30,257 bases of DNA, taken from the IMG/VR virus record IMGVR_UViG_3300032322_000951, positions 1 through 30,257 of that record. One strand, 5' to 3'. How positions within the stretch are numbered: the first letter of the stretch is position 1; every line of letters starts with the position of its first letter. This document shows, piece after piece, positions 1 to 7,778 of the stretch. Under the pieces are notes generated by a model, which saw nothing but the letters and a program-made list of their open reading frames with translations, was not told where the DNA came from and did no database searches. The translations under genes were made by a program, and so were the position numbers. Origin of the DNA: a virus.

Positions 1-270
1 AAACAAGTCCGTGTCCAGTTCTCGGAAGAGTTTTTAGAGTTTTTTTTGGGGGTGGTTGAAGAGAAGGGAGTGTGGATAAGTAAGGAGCAAATGTATAATG
101 ATTTTTTAAATATGACTGGTTTTGAGAAGAAAGAATACTCGATGAAACGGTTTTCAAAGGCGATTGATGAATCGTGTACTATTTTAAAAATCGTGTACCA
201 AAGTACGCGTTCAAAGGCTCATAATAATAAAAAATGTATAAAGTTCGTAGAGACAGAAGAGTTGTTTTAA
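1..270 (+). CDS. C-terminal fragment of a probable primase/helicase
   Basis: The frame is open from base 1, so this is the end of a gene that starts outside the window; the TTG at 46 is not a convincing start. The visible 89 residues are charged and predicted helical (VRVQFSEEFLEFF near the start, then WISKEQMYNDFLNMTGF), and resemble the winged-helix tail that follows the ATPase domain in phage D5/VirE-like primase-helicases. The helicase start at the other window end and the origin-like repeats just downstream fit a replication role. No catalytic motif is inside the window, so the family call is inference. Two AATCGTGTAC repeat copies (170-179, 189-198) lie inside the coding sequence. Confidence 0.5.
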   Translation, partial: KQVRVQFSEEFLEFFLGVVEEKGVWISKEQMYNDFLNMTGFEKKEYSMKRFSKAIDESCTILKIVYQSTRSKAHNNKKCIKFVETEELF

Positions 271-484
271 AAGTGGCTAGTAGTTTTGCCATTTTGGGTA
301 CACGATTTTGGGCTTGGGTACACGATTGGTACACGATTAGTACACGATTAAAACGTTGATTATCAATGCCGGTACACGATGTACACGATTTTTCTATGTT
401 TTTTCTATGCCCTCCTTTTTTTTGGGCAAAAAATATAGGTGTGGGTGGAGTAAGGAAAATCGTGAAAATCGTGTTATCGTGTAC
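170..484. repeat. Iteron-like cluster of GTACACGATT repeats (candidate origin)
   Basis: Seven exact copies of the 10-mer GTACACGATT or its complement: minus orientation at 170-179 and 189-198, plus orientation at 298-307, 318-327, 329-338, 340-349 and 381-390. Two 9/10 copies lie at 372-381 (plus) and 475-484 (minus), and two AATCGTG half copies at 458-464 and 467-473. Neighbouring starts are 11, 11, 20, 32, 9 and 19 bases apart, close to whole helical turns. Such phased repeats are typical of initiator binding sites (iterons). The cluster lies just before the DnaA domain IV-like gene, which supports an origin or autoregulatory operator. There is no gene from 271 to 590. Confidence 0.7.
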
Positions 485-487
485 CTA

Positions 488-505
488 GCAATTTTTTAAA
501 ATTGC
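488..505. repeat. Perfect AT-rich inverted repeat
   Basis: GCAATTTT, TT, AAAATTGC: an 8-bp perfect stem around two bases, placed between the repeat cluster and the DnaA-like gene. It could be an unwinding or hairpin element of the origin, or a weak terminator for the gene ending at 270. The position favours the first, but function is inference. Confidence 0.45.
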
Positions 506-3708: not shown

Positions 3709-4026
3709 ATGAATAGTCAAACCGATATCATACAAGAAGAAGACAAGAAGAAAGGCAGAGGCGGTTTCCGTCCAGGCTCAGGTCGTCCTAGAAGGATGGA
3801 TGAAGCTGAGATAATAAAGAAGCTCGAACCGATGGCTGCAACTGCCTTTAAGGTATTGGAGTCTAAGATTAAGGATGGCGACATGAACGCAATTAAACTA
3901 TACATGCAATACTTCCTGGGCTTACCTACTCAGAAAATAGAGAACAAGATCGAAGGTCAACTCAATCAGGTATCAGTCGAGGTAGTGCGCCCTGAGTTAG
4001 TAAAGGAAGAAGTAATATGTAACTAA
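3709..4026 (+). CDS. terS: Terminase small subunit (putative)
   Basis: A 105-residue protein. A basic glycine-rich N-terminus (KKKGRGGFRPGSGRPRRMDE) is followed by helices (AEIIKKLEPMAATAFKVLES, then DGDMNAIKLYMQYFLGLPTQ), a common layout of small terminase subunits in phages of Bacteroidota. Small subunits bind the packaging site and regulate the large subunit. The call rests on position directly before terL plus the GRP-rich start. ATG 3709 follows the preceding stop by 6 bases. Confidence 0.65.
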   Translation: MNSQTDIIQEEDKKKGRGGFRPGSGRPRRMDEAEIIKKLEPMAATAFKVLESKIKDGDMNAIKLYMQYFLGLPTQKIENKIEGQLNQVSVEVVRPELVKEEVICN

Positions 4027-4308
4027 CTGAGTGTTAACGGGTTAGAGCCCTACTTAACATAACATACCTTATAAGGGAAAAGGGTTTTTTTTGGGGGCAT
4101 ATACGATGGGGGGGACTTAAAGAAAAAAGGATTTGACCGAGGCGGGGTAAAGCGAGCAGTTTGATAGCACCCAAATGAGTATCTAACTTTTGATAATAAA
4201 GCTATAACTTGACAAACTACTGATAAAAGTAAAGCTATACGATGACCCCTATTTATACCATACTTTTCAAACTCAAAACACAATACTAAATTTTAATTTT
4301 TCTCTGAA
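4027..4308. other. Gene-free gap between terminase genes
   Basis: About 280 bases without a convincing gene. It begins G-rich (runs of 5 to 8 G or T near 4084-4115) and becomes AT-rich. Two related direct repeats lie at 4191-4206 (TGATAATAAAGCTATA) and 4221-4239 (TGATAAAAGTAAAGCTATA), each followed within a few bases by TGAC. These could be packaging-site (terminase binding) or regulatory repeats. The minus-strand ORF at 4050-4283 has low-complexity composition and no support. Confidence 0.4.
4160..4192 (+). promoter_or_regulatory. Possible late promoter before terL
   Basis: TTTG (4160-4163), 20 bases, TAACTTTTG (4184-4192): like the Bacteroidota pattern but with one extra T in the -7 element. 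It would serve the packaging-head-tail operon. Weak match. Confidence 0.3.
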
Positions 4309-5454
4309 ATGAACGCTAAACTCCAAACTAACAAGGTATACGAAATACTTTCAGACTCAAAGAAGAGAATCACTGTAATGCAAGGGGGTTCTCGTTCTGG
4401 AAAAACTTACAATATTCTGATTTGGTTCATTGTTAAATTGTTACAAGAGAATGGCAAGACCTTAACAATAGTCCGACAATCGCTTCCGAGCATTAAGGGT
4501 ACGGTGTTAAGGGATTTTATAGATATACTTTCCCGTCTTGGTATTTATAGTGAGGACAATCACAACAAGACGGACCAGATTTATTCTTTGAATGGAAATA
4601 TAGTGGAGTTTGTATCGGCTGATCAACCTCAGAAGATTCGTGGTCGTGCAAGAACGTATTTGTTCTGCAATGAGGCTAACGAATTGACATATGAGGCTTG
4701 GATGCAGTTGATAATGCGTACTGAGGGTAAGATAGTGATTGACTATAACCCTTCTGACTTATCATCTTGGATTTATGATTCAGTAATTCCTCGTGATGAT
4801 GCAGACTTTCATATTACTACTTTCCGTGATAACCCATTTCTTCCAAATGAGTTAGTCTTGGAGTTAGAGAGGCTGAAAGATGCCGACCCTAACTATTGGA
4901 CTATCTACGGATTAGGTGAGAGAGGATTGTCACAAGACTTGATATACTCACACTGGAAAACAACTGAGCAGATGCCAGAGGATGGAGAGGTGGTGTACGG
5001 ATTGGACTTTGGGTTTAATGTGCCTACGGCTCTTGTAAAGGTTGTGTTCCACGAAGATGCTGCGTATTGTCAAGAGTTGATATATGAGCCGAAGATGACA
5101 ACTGATGATGTGATAGACAGACTAAAGACATTAGGCATAGAAAAGTGGGATGATTTGTATTGTGATGCTGCCGAGCCGAAAACAATAGAGAGTATAGTGA
5201 GGGGAGGATTCAATGCCAAACCAGCTAACAAAGATGTGACGGAGGGAATAAAGACTGTAAAAGCAACTCCATTGTATATTCACCAAGATAGTGTAAATTT
5301 GTTAAAAGAAATAAAAAACTATCGTTGGAAAACTGACCGTAATGGAAACAAACTTGATGCTCCCGTGAAGTTTAATGACCATATTCTTGATGCACTTAGA
5401 TACGGCATATTTAGTAAATTAACTATCCCAAGTGTTACTTGGGGTGCAATATAA
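4309..5454 (+). CDS. terL: Terminase large subunit (PBSX-like)
   Basis: ATP-driven DNA packaging motor with a headful or cos nuclease. Residues 26-33 GGSRSGKT are the Walker A motif, and YLFCNEAN (117-124, with E122) the Walker B region in the NE form typical of PBSX-type terminases. The C-terminal RNase H-like nuclease shows YGLDFGFN, LYCDAAEP and FNDHILDALRYG with its acidic residues. At 381 residues it is slightly short but complete. It is separated from the portal gene by 6 bases. Confidence 0.95.
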   Translation: MNAKLQTNKVYEILSDSKKRITVMQGGSRSGKTYNILIWFIVKLLQENGKTLTIVRQSLPSIKGTVLRDFIDILSRLGIYSEDNHNKTDQIYSLNGNIVEFVSADQPQKIRGRARTYLFCNEANELTYEAWMQLIMRTEGKIVIDYNPSDLSSWIYDSVIPRDDADFHITTFRDNPFLPNELVLELERLKDADPNYWTIYGLGERGLSQDLIYSHWKTTEQMPEDGEVVYGLDFGFNVPTALVKVVFHEDAAYCQELIYEPKMTTDDVIDRLKTLGIEKWDDLYCDAAEPKTIESIVRGGFNAKPANKDVTEGIKTVKATPLYIHQDSVNLLKEIKNYRWKTDRNGNKLDAPVKFNDHILDALRYGIFSKLTIPSVTWGAI

Positions 5455-5460
5455 AAATAG

Positions 5461-6936
5461 ATGGGTTTATTAGACATATTCAAGAAAAAGGGTTTAGACC
5501 CGAATCAGAATGTAACAACAAATATTAGGGGCATCAACGGAGCGTTGTTACAAGAGTATGAGAATGGTAAGTATGTTTACGAAGGATATTTAGGTAATGC
5601 AGATGTGTATAGCATTGTGTCATTCCTTGCACGCAAAGCTGCATCTATTCCGTGGTACGTTTACAAAACAAATAATACAGAGAAGGGTAGGACATCACTA
5701 ATGCGCTACAAGCAATTAACAAAAGGCTTGGGGAATCAAGGTGCGTTTGAGAGAGCGGTGATAGAGAGGAAGAACGCATATAGTGAGAATATTGTGATGA
5801 ACTCTGCATTAGCTAGATTATTAGAAAGACCGAATGAATATCAAGCACAAGACCAATTCCTCGAAAACTTATTTGGTTATAGATTTTTGTCAGGAGAAGG
5901 TAATATTTACGGCAATGATGGAAAGATGGGGGGAAAGTTCGCTGAACTTAACGTGCTTCCAACCCATTTCTTGGACATCTACCCCGACCCTAACGACCTC
6001 TACGGACTCGTTGGTTATAGACTTATGGTTGACAGAGGAATAGATATTCCGAAGGACCAAGTATGTGCTTGGAAAACTTGGAACCCAGACTTTGATGCAA
6101 CAACAAGAACACACTTGCGTGGGTTGTCACCATTACGTGCTGCATACAAAACACTTCGTATGAGCAACAATGCTGCTGATGCAAGTGCGATGATGGCTGC
6201 GAATGGTGGAGCAAAGGGTGCAATTACTCCGAAGCCACTCGGAACGGTGGTGCCATCATTTACAATAGAGCAAGCAAACATCATTAAAAGAGCAGTCAAC
6301 GAGGACATCAACACTGTTGACAATAAAGGCAAGGTTGCAGTGCTGCAAACACCTTGGGACTATTTAAACTTTGGGTTGTCATCAGTAGATATGGAGCTAG
6401 TTAAAACAATGCAGATGAGCCTTCATCAGTGGTGTAGGGTGTTTGGAATGCCAGCGGTGTTATTTGATGTTGATACGTCATCATACAACAACTACCAAAA
6501 TGCAATGCGTGACCTAATCACTAACACAATTATGCCAATGTGCTGCTCACTCAGAGATGAGTTGAACAAATGGTTGGTACCAAGATTTGGTGAGGATGTG
6601 TTCATTGACTTTGATATAACTGCACTACCAGAGATGCAGCAAGATATGGAGAGGATGGTACGGTCTCTTCGTGATGCTAACTGGCTAACGATGGATGAGA
6701 AGAGAGTAGCTATGAACTATTCTAAGAAAGAGGGTGCGTGGGATATGAGTTATATCAATCAGGGGCTTGTGCCAATCACTCAAGTAATGATGGACCTAAG
6801 CATAGCAGATGATAATAGCAACGACAACAGACAAAGAGATATGGGCGATCGTGATGAAGAGATTTCCGAAGATCCCTACGGAAATGACGTGCCTAACGGA
6901 GAGGACTATGAGGATGCAAGTGAGGATGTCGTATAA
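5461..6936 (+). CDS. Portal protein (HK97 family)
   Basis: A 491-residue protein forming the dodecameric ring at the capsid vertex through which DNA enters. Features typical of HK97-type portals: VYSIVSFLARKAASIPWYVY near residue 48, LLERPNEYQAQDQFLENLFG, GNIYGND, VLPTHFLDIYPD, LRGLSPLRAAYKTL, and VLFDVDTSSYNNYQNAMRDL near residue 340. The C-terminus is acidic. It follows terL and precedes the MuF-like protein, the standard order. Confidence 0.93.
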   Translation: MGLLDIFKKKGLDPNQNVTTNIRGINGALLQEYENGKYVYEGYLGNADVYSIVSFLARKAASIPWYVYKTNNTEKGRTSLMRYKQLTKGLGNQGAFERAVIERKNAYSENIVMNSALARLLERPNEYQAQDQFLENLFGYRFLSGEGNIYGNDGKMGGKFAELNVLPTHFLDIYPDPNDLYGLVGYRLMVDRGIDIPKDQVCAWKTWNPDFDATTRTHLRGLSPLRAAYKTLRMSNNAADASAMMAANGGAKGAITPKPLGTVVPSFTIEQANIIKRAVNEDINTVDNKGKVAVLQTPWDYLNFGLSSVDMELVKTMQMSLHQWCRVFGMPAVLFDVDTSSYNNYQNAMRDLITNTIMPMCCSLRDELNKWLVPRFGEDVFIDFDITALPEMQQDMERMVRSLRDANWLTMDEKRVAMNYSKKEGAWDMSYINQGLVPITQVMMDLSIADDNSNDNRQRDMGDRDEEISEDPYGNDVPNGEDYEDASEDVV

Positions 6937-6950
6937 AATAAAACTTATCA

Positions 6951-7778
6951 ATGAACGCAACGCAGCGAGGGACATATTGGCTGAAGGTGGAGAGGCTGCG
7001 AAGGACTCTTGATAAGAAATATAGTTCTTTGTTTTTTGGTGTATTAAAAAGTGAGCTAGAGAACTTTGCAAGAAGTGTAAGAAGAGATGGTGCGAGTGCT
7101 GCGGTGAGTGGGCTTGGTGCAGTTGCTTGGGATGATAGGATAATGCCTATTATGAGGCAGATGTACCGAGAAGTAGCTACTATATTCGGCAACGCAACAT
7201 TTAGAGCAGTGAGTGTCGATAGCAAGAAGGCTGCTAACCCATTTGGTATAAATGATGAGTTACTCGATGAGATAACATCATTTCTAATACAATGGGGGTT
7301 TTTACTTGCATCACTAATGACTAAGACAACCAAAGATAGGTTGATAGTGATAGTGAACGATGCGATGGCACAAGGCTTGAGCAATGAGGAGATAGCAAAG
7401 TTAATACTTAGCGACCCACAGATACAATATGCAAGGTATAGGAGCGTGATGATAGCAAGAACTGAGGTGATGAGAGCAAGCAACTATGCAGCATTAAAAG
7501 GTGCAGAGAAGTTGCCATTCCAAGTTGACAAGATTTGGATAAGCACAAGAGATGCGAGGACAAGGCGCATACCTAAAGACTTCTTTGACCATTGGAATAT
7601 GGATGGGCAGATTGTAGGTTACAACGAGCCATTCATTAGTGCGGATAAGGTTGGGAGACCTATTGTGGTGGATGCACCTGGTGACCCAACTGCACCAAAA
7701 GGATTTACAATTAATTGCAGATGCGCAGTAGGATTCATTCCGAAGCGAGATGCAAACGGACAACTAATAATGAAATGA
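6951..7778 (+). CDS. Minor head protein (MuF / SPP1 gp7-like)
   Basis: 275 residues with an alpha-helical N-terminus and a C-terminal MuF-type domain: ARTEVMRASNYAALKGAEK, IWISTRDARTRRIP, HWNMDGQIV, then APKGFTINCRCAVGFIPKRD. These correspond to the conserved RTE, DxRTR, H and CRC features of the phage head morphogenesis family. The protein probably binds the portal and is carried in the head. It lies between portal and protease; ATG 6951 is 14 bases after the portal stop. Confidence 0.9.
   Translation: MNATQRGTYWLKVERLRRTLDKKYSSLFFGVLKSELENFARSVRRDGASAAVSGLGAVAWDDRIMPIMRQMYREVATIFGNATFRAVSVDSKKAANPFGINDELLDEITSFLIQWGFLLASLMTKTTKDRLIVIVNDAMAQGLSNEEIAKLILSDPQIQYARYRSVMIARTEVMRASNYAALKGAEKLPFQVDKIWISTRDARTRRIPKDFFDHWNMDGQIVGYNEPFISADKVGRPIVVDAPGDPTAPKGFTINCRCAVGFIPKRDANGQLIMK

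Follow-up and report, generated by a model that had tools for sequence, protein, structure and literature searches.

Genes and repeats at the left end of the fragment

The window, that is the whole stretch of DNA analysed, is an IMG/VR virus fragment of 30,257 bp. It begins inside a plus-strand gene, whose 5' part lies outside the record and whose last 89 amino acids are encoded at positions 1-270; a gene for a 129-aa, DnaA domain IV-only protein follows on the same strand (591-980, with the ATG at 591), and a cluster of short repeats lies at the end of the first gene and between the two. Among the other window genes checked are those of a tailed phage, such as terminase, portal, Mu F-like, protease and capsid genes. 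Since the record starts within the initiator gene and cumulative GC skew almost only rises along the fragment, skew is uninformative on the origin here.

Positions 1-270 hold the 3' end of a gene for a Prim-Pol/SF3-like initiator of about 830 aa. Relatives were gathered both via the DnaA-like protein and via the upstream protein; full-length relatives of the latter measure 829–832 aa in the close family of the window. A Prim-Pol domain (PF09250) is found at their N-terminus (E 1e-13 in L009, 3e-13 in L023), the window holding the C-terminal 89 aa only. The helicase part of the relatives matches DUF5906 (E 1e-7 to 3e-8) and features a visible GGGTGKG P-loop and a TTN motif: its description as SF3-like is based on this match and on these motifs. 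The AlphaFold2 model of the C-terminal 89 aa has a winged-helix topology, helices followed by a two-strand wing, with a pLDDT of 88; this domain, a predicted winged helix, is the proposed reader of the boxes described below. No solved structure convincingly related to the initiator by sequence was found. Fold searches with the model returned generic winged-helix and similar folds and no specific relative, the P4 alpha domain not being among the fold matches shown, and the 89-aa fragment gave no match against phage records.

The 129-aa protein, as anticipated in the preliminary description, contains a DnaA-type DNA-binding domain: Bac_DnaA_C (PF08299, E 1.2e-17) is its sole match above the cut-off, and DnaA AAA+ domain III was not found. 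Its model compares with the DNA-binding domain of M. tuberculosis DnaA (3pvp) at a TM score of 0.95, by target length; the invariant R27 and H62 positions are retained, and the gene is under purifying selection (dN/dS 0.09–0.17). Ahead of it, a TTGATAGTTGTCAACA element (558-573, not assigned to a strand), replaced by TTGATAGTTATCAACA in most close relatives, resembles a DnaA box and might tentatively be considered an operator. A universal DnaA-box operator before this gene is a weak proposal and was rejected: of 46 representatives, 10 have TTATCCACA with one mismatch at most (2.2 in shuffles), and most of these belong to one lineage. Just past the gene, within 956-1020, GGTTTTTGG is found three times (956, 981, 1012), along with a CAGTTCACTTCGTTCACTG inverted repeat (992); L008 and L054 have similar elements in the corresponding place.

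The repeated box, GTACACGATT, occurs seven times without mismatches, always within 170-390, where 0.03 copies are expected in the whole window from dinucleotide shuffles; seven or more were reached in none of 100 shuffles. With one mismatch allowed, nine copies are found (1.38 expected; 0 of 100 shuffles), all of them inside 170-484 and none in the rest of the 30-kb window. The cluster is therefore real, and two of its copies do lie within the upstream gene. These two are on the minus strand, and both are exact: g1 (170-179), with E-S-C-T on the coding strand where the predicted recognition helix ends, is identical in 11 of 11 aligned relatives; g2 (189-198), which codes for K-I-V-Y in strand one of the predicted wing, encodes K-I-A-Y where the boxes are of the GTACGCGATT type. 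Six plus-strand boxes follow the gene: b1 (298-307), b2 (318-327), b3 (329-338) and b4 (340-349), all exact, then b5 (372-381), which has one mismatch (GTACACGATG), and b6 (381-390), exact and 9 bp past b5. The phasing originally noticed is precise, b2, b3 and b4 being spaced by exactly 11 bp. A dyad, TTGATTATCAA (356-366, no strand), lies between b4 and b5; among relatives its position is conserved and its sequence nearly so, while the boxes vary. To the right of b6, a T-rich or AT-rich stretch (391-452, no strand), including two TTTTTCTATG repeats 11 bp apart, is a candidate unwinding element. Beyond it, facing b5/b6, are three boxes on the minus strand: R0 (458-467) and R1 (467-476), degenerate copies with two mismatches each, and R2 (475-484), with one. 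The array is not built of standard DnaA boxes, TTATNCACA, a difference already pointed out in the preliminary description.

Conserved layout and concerted switching of the boxes

To compare the array, a box-finding script was run on 72 loci; it mis-registered some lineages, and the loci without well-scored boxes were judged from alignments. The usual order is b1, about 20 bp, b2, 11 bp, b3, 11 bp, b4, a TTGATNATCAA-like dyad, b5 and b6 placed 9 bp apart, T-rich DNA and inverted boxes. The conservation in relatives, by which the preliminary description proposed to judge the cluster, is thus found in the layout: repeat number, order and spacing are largely kept in the 72 relatives, while the motif itself switches by lineage. 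The b4–b5 gap, in the 33 loci with all boxes well scored, is of 30–32 bp in 22, 42 bp in ten and 53 bp in one. Helical phasing is suggested by these increments, each of about one helical turn. Some lineages, L095 and L046 among them, have no recognisable right-hand boxes. In eight relative contigs of 29–43 kb, exact box matches are confined to the array region, and no second such cluster was seen.

Arrays with two box types are found in L095, L103 and their kin, where GTAGTCCATT occupies b1, b5 and b6, and a GTAGCGCA-type box occupies b2–b4. Another variant is found in a chromosome contig of the cultured Niabella aurantiaca DSM 17617 (L129, positions 3965-7221): a related initiator gene, related repeats accompanied by the same TTGATTATCAA dyad, and a DnaA domain IV gene. 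This locus is read as a flipped version of the layout, and the element carrying it may be a prophage.

Several box types are distributed among the lineages (GTACACGATT, GTACGCGATT, GTACGTGATT, GTAGTCCATT, TTAACATCATT, TTGTACCACTT and others), mostly uniform within one array. The uniformity extends to both ends of the cluster. The in-gene segment, read on the opposite strand, has a mismatch of 0.06 to the boxes of its own locus versus 0.21 to those of other loci, and the right-hand segment 0.13 versus 0.24 (permutation p 0.0005); a control segment, 200 nt further upstream, shows no preference for its own boxes. In the L008 locus the second in-gene box is switched, together with a valine-to-alanine change in the protein, while the first, coding for E-S-C-T, is unchanged. 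The boxes, in-gene copies included, switch in concert among lineages. Because the in-gene copies change sequence along with the array, they are taken as part of it, which supports their earlier interpretation as a functional part of the cluster. An import into L008 of a C-terminal domain and array of the L038 type was also considered: identity to L038 is only slightly higher there, and dS is not raised.

Covariation of the boxes with the two flanking proteins

The variation of the boxes was correlated to that of each flanking protein by partial Mantel tests on 61 loci; these tests model no tree, for sequences which share ancestry, and use motif distances from the automatic box caller, by which some lineages are mis-registered. 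The motif correlates with the C-terminal domain of the initiator, given the DnaA-like protein (0.57, p 0.001); the correlation with the DnaA-like protein, given the initiator domain, is -0.04 (p 0.79). When the initiator is scanned by 90-residue segments, the strongest correlation is found at the C-terminal end (0.74–0.76 for close pairs, versus 0.20 for the DnaA-like protein) and is still 0.71 without the residues coded by the in-gene boxes; a segment further upstream, residues 601-690, correlates too (0.66). The coding sequence of the C-terminal domain adjoins the boxes, so that its correlation could be inflated by linkage; the DnaA domain IV gene, being comparably close to them, serves as a partial control (0.20).

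Two loci separate the boxes from the DnaA-like protein, since they dissociate in opposite directions. In L008 both boxes and winged helix are changed, while the DnaA recognition region is 92–95% identical; compared to relatives of the window family, dN is 0.14–0.16 in the C-terminal domain versus 0.03–0.04 in the helicase core, about 4–5 times higher, with similar dS. In L023 the DnaA recognition region has diverged and the boxes are unchanged. Near-identical boxes are also found with DnaA domain IV proteins just 30–49% identical. By these sequence comparisons, the boxes follow the C-terminal domain of the initiator, not the DnaA-like protein.

The DnaA domain IV gene is nevertheless a regular companion of the array. 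It lies downstream of it in 65 of the 72 loci (five of the other seven have less than 400 nt of flank), and adjoins it in 65 of the 67 with sufficient downstream flank. In L054, L055 and L063 the array is beside the helicase gene, with the DnaA domain IV gene kilobases off. Among 25 contigs searched, exactly one copy is present in 22 and none in three (L036, L039, L109), stretches which end at about 360 nt or less from the helicase gene. L130 and L131, whose initiators are 43–45% identical, feature no such gene apart from the host's own DnaA, and repeat-rich sequence is still found beside their initiator gene. DnaA domain IV genes of other phages occur in different replication contexts. L063 and L054 carry a DnaA domain IV protein of another kind, with SHHTTVMHG / THHTTVIHA as recognition region and a frame stopping directly after the domain. 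A podovirus record (MW202828, L146) carries a 100-aa 'dnaA' gene (436-738) about 2.4 kb before a primase-helicase which matches this initiator at 31%.

The array as a putative replication origin

The compared sequences establish the architecture of the array, its conservation, the concerted switching, and that the boxes covary with the initiator's C-terminal domain; from them we infer initiator binding and origin activity for the group carrying the array, taken to be phages of Bacteroidota. Region 170-484 is very probably the phage replication origin, an iteron array whose reader is the predicted C-terminal winged helix of the Prim-Pol/SF3-like initiator that the phage itself encodes; the DnaA domain IV protein would be a separate accessory. 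Initiator molecules would occupy boxes on both flanks of the AT-rich stretch, the phased b1–b4 and b5/b6 to its left and the inverted R boxes to its right; their helicase domains would assemble as facing rings, leading to the opening of the stretch, and the Prim-Pol domain would then prime. The 129-aa protein, proposed to be a conserved accessory factor and not the box reader, could act as a regulator, or as a helper or antagonist of host DnaA. A more elaborate, rather unlikely version is that of a two-part replication module: the boxes, including those coding for part of the initiator's DNA-reading domain, would be rewritten in step with it, and host DnaA boxes would be the target of the DnaA domain IV protein, favouring phage over host initiation.

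The preliminary description had also proposed an origin, made by repeats and domain IV protein as a self-contained initiator system. Its first half is retained, for a conserved cluster which, by inference, looks like an origin; the second is contradicted by the covariation with the initiator domain and by the behavior of L008 and L023 and of L054, L055 and L063. Near-constant vicinity to the array, purifying selection and a fold able to bind DnaA boxes would all suit a DnaA domain IV protein reading the repeats; yet its correlation with the motif vanishes once the initiator domain is accounted for, similar boxes are found with very different DnaA domain IV proteins, L130 and L131 have repeat-rich sequence in the presence of the host DnaA only, and the protein is devoid of the DnaA ATPase domain, so that such a role is very improbable. 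Much the same can be said of the boxes as operators, by which the initiator would control its own gene or the DnaA domain IV gene, replication beginning elsewhere. Boxes do flank the intergenic region ahead of the latter gene, and iteron autoregulation is common in plasmids; an operator, however, needs less than at least nine phased boxes, of which two are inside the upstream gene, along with a fixed dyad and an AT-rich stretch. Moreover, the array stays with the helicase gene where the DnaA domain IV gene is elsewhere, and the eight relative contigs contain no further cluster of this kind. We consider this reading to have a low probability.

A structural element may also be envisaged. In the window, b5/b6 can pair with the inverted R boxes in a large stem-loop (fold z -7.0), as is the case in several relatives, and pRN1 requires one past the 3' end of its initiator gene (PMC4234260). 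In line with what was proposed for pRN1 and phage BIP-1, it could be the stem-loop that is recognised at the origin, the boxes being simply its arms. This is improbable, as some lineages, among them L095, L046, L052 and L115, lack a significant stem-loop but keep boxes similar to b1–b6, and b1–b4, outside the stem, are equally conserved. The stem-loop, absent or weak in several relatives, is not universal. Finally, terminase genes about 4 kb downstream could hint at a partition or packaging site, or at another non-replicative protein-binding array; given that the covariation is with a Prim-Pol/helicase initiator, and that the array adjoins the gene for it rather than a terminase or ParA/ParB gene, the probability of such a function is minimal.

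The preferred reading, an origin recognised by the initiator, finds its closest parallels in known self-loading systems. In staphylococci, SaPI Rep and SCC Cch2 each use their C-terminal domain to recognise repeats that directly follow their own gene (PMC7581432). The phages likewise feature short repeats directly 3' of an initiator helicase gene, and would share with these systems a self-loading initiator helicase and recognition by its C-terminal domain (PMC7581432), a likeness drawn from layout and recognition mode, as published for those systems. They differ in that the helicase is fused to a Prim-Pol, boxes are also present inside the initiator gene, the layout includes a conserved dyad and a DnaA domain IV companion, and the carriers are tailed phages, related to elements in Bacteroidota genomes. 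P4 alpha is a primase-helicase whose winged-helix domain binds origin repeats (PMC4234260); the initiator described here resembles it for the primase-helicase with a predicted winged helix and for the origin repeats, which it would presumably bind, but has a Prim-Pol (AEP, PF09250), while the primase of P4 alpha is a Toprim one. By analogy, the best reading is that the origin works like those of SaPI, SCC-Cch2 and P4.

The domain order, an N-terminal AEP/Prim-Pol and a predicted C-terminal winged helix, is that of pRN1 ORF904 and of phage BIP-1, with an AEP primase, an SF3 helicase, a C-terminal winged helix, and an origin region 3' of the gene where a large stem-loop is possible (PMC4234260). 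In pRN1-type replicons, however, no iterons were found, and stem-loop recognition was proposed, with sequence motifs yet to be identified (PMC4234260); here iterons are present, and make up the arms of the stem. As to bacterial DnaA and oriC, the likeness is in the domain IV fold of the downstream protein; the boxes are not DnaA boxes, and domains I–III are absent from the 129-aa protein.

How Prim-Pol/SF3/winged-helix initiators find their origin was left open for pRN1-type replicons (PMC4234260), and these phages offer candidate motifs. A DnaA domain IV companion, nearly universal and in single copy, is conserved in the system, with a putative accessory role. Within the coding sequence the sites are under a constraint, a change of box replacing the valine of K-I-V-Y, in the predicted wing, by alanine, and the several protein-DNA pairs switched in nature make the recognition code testable.
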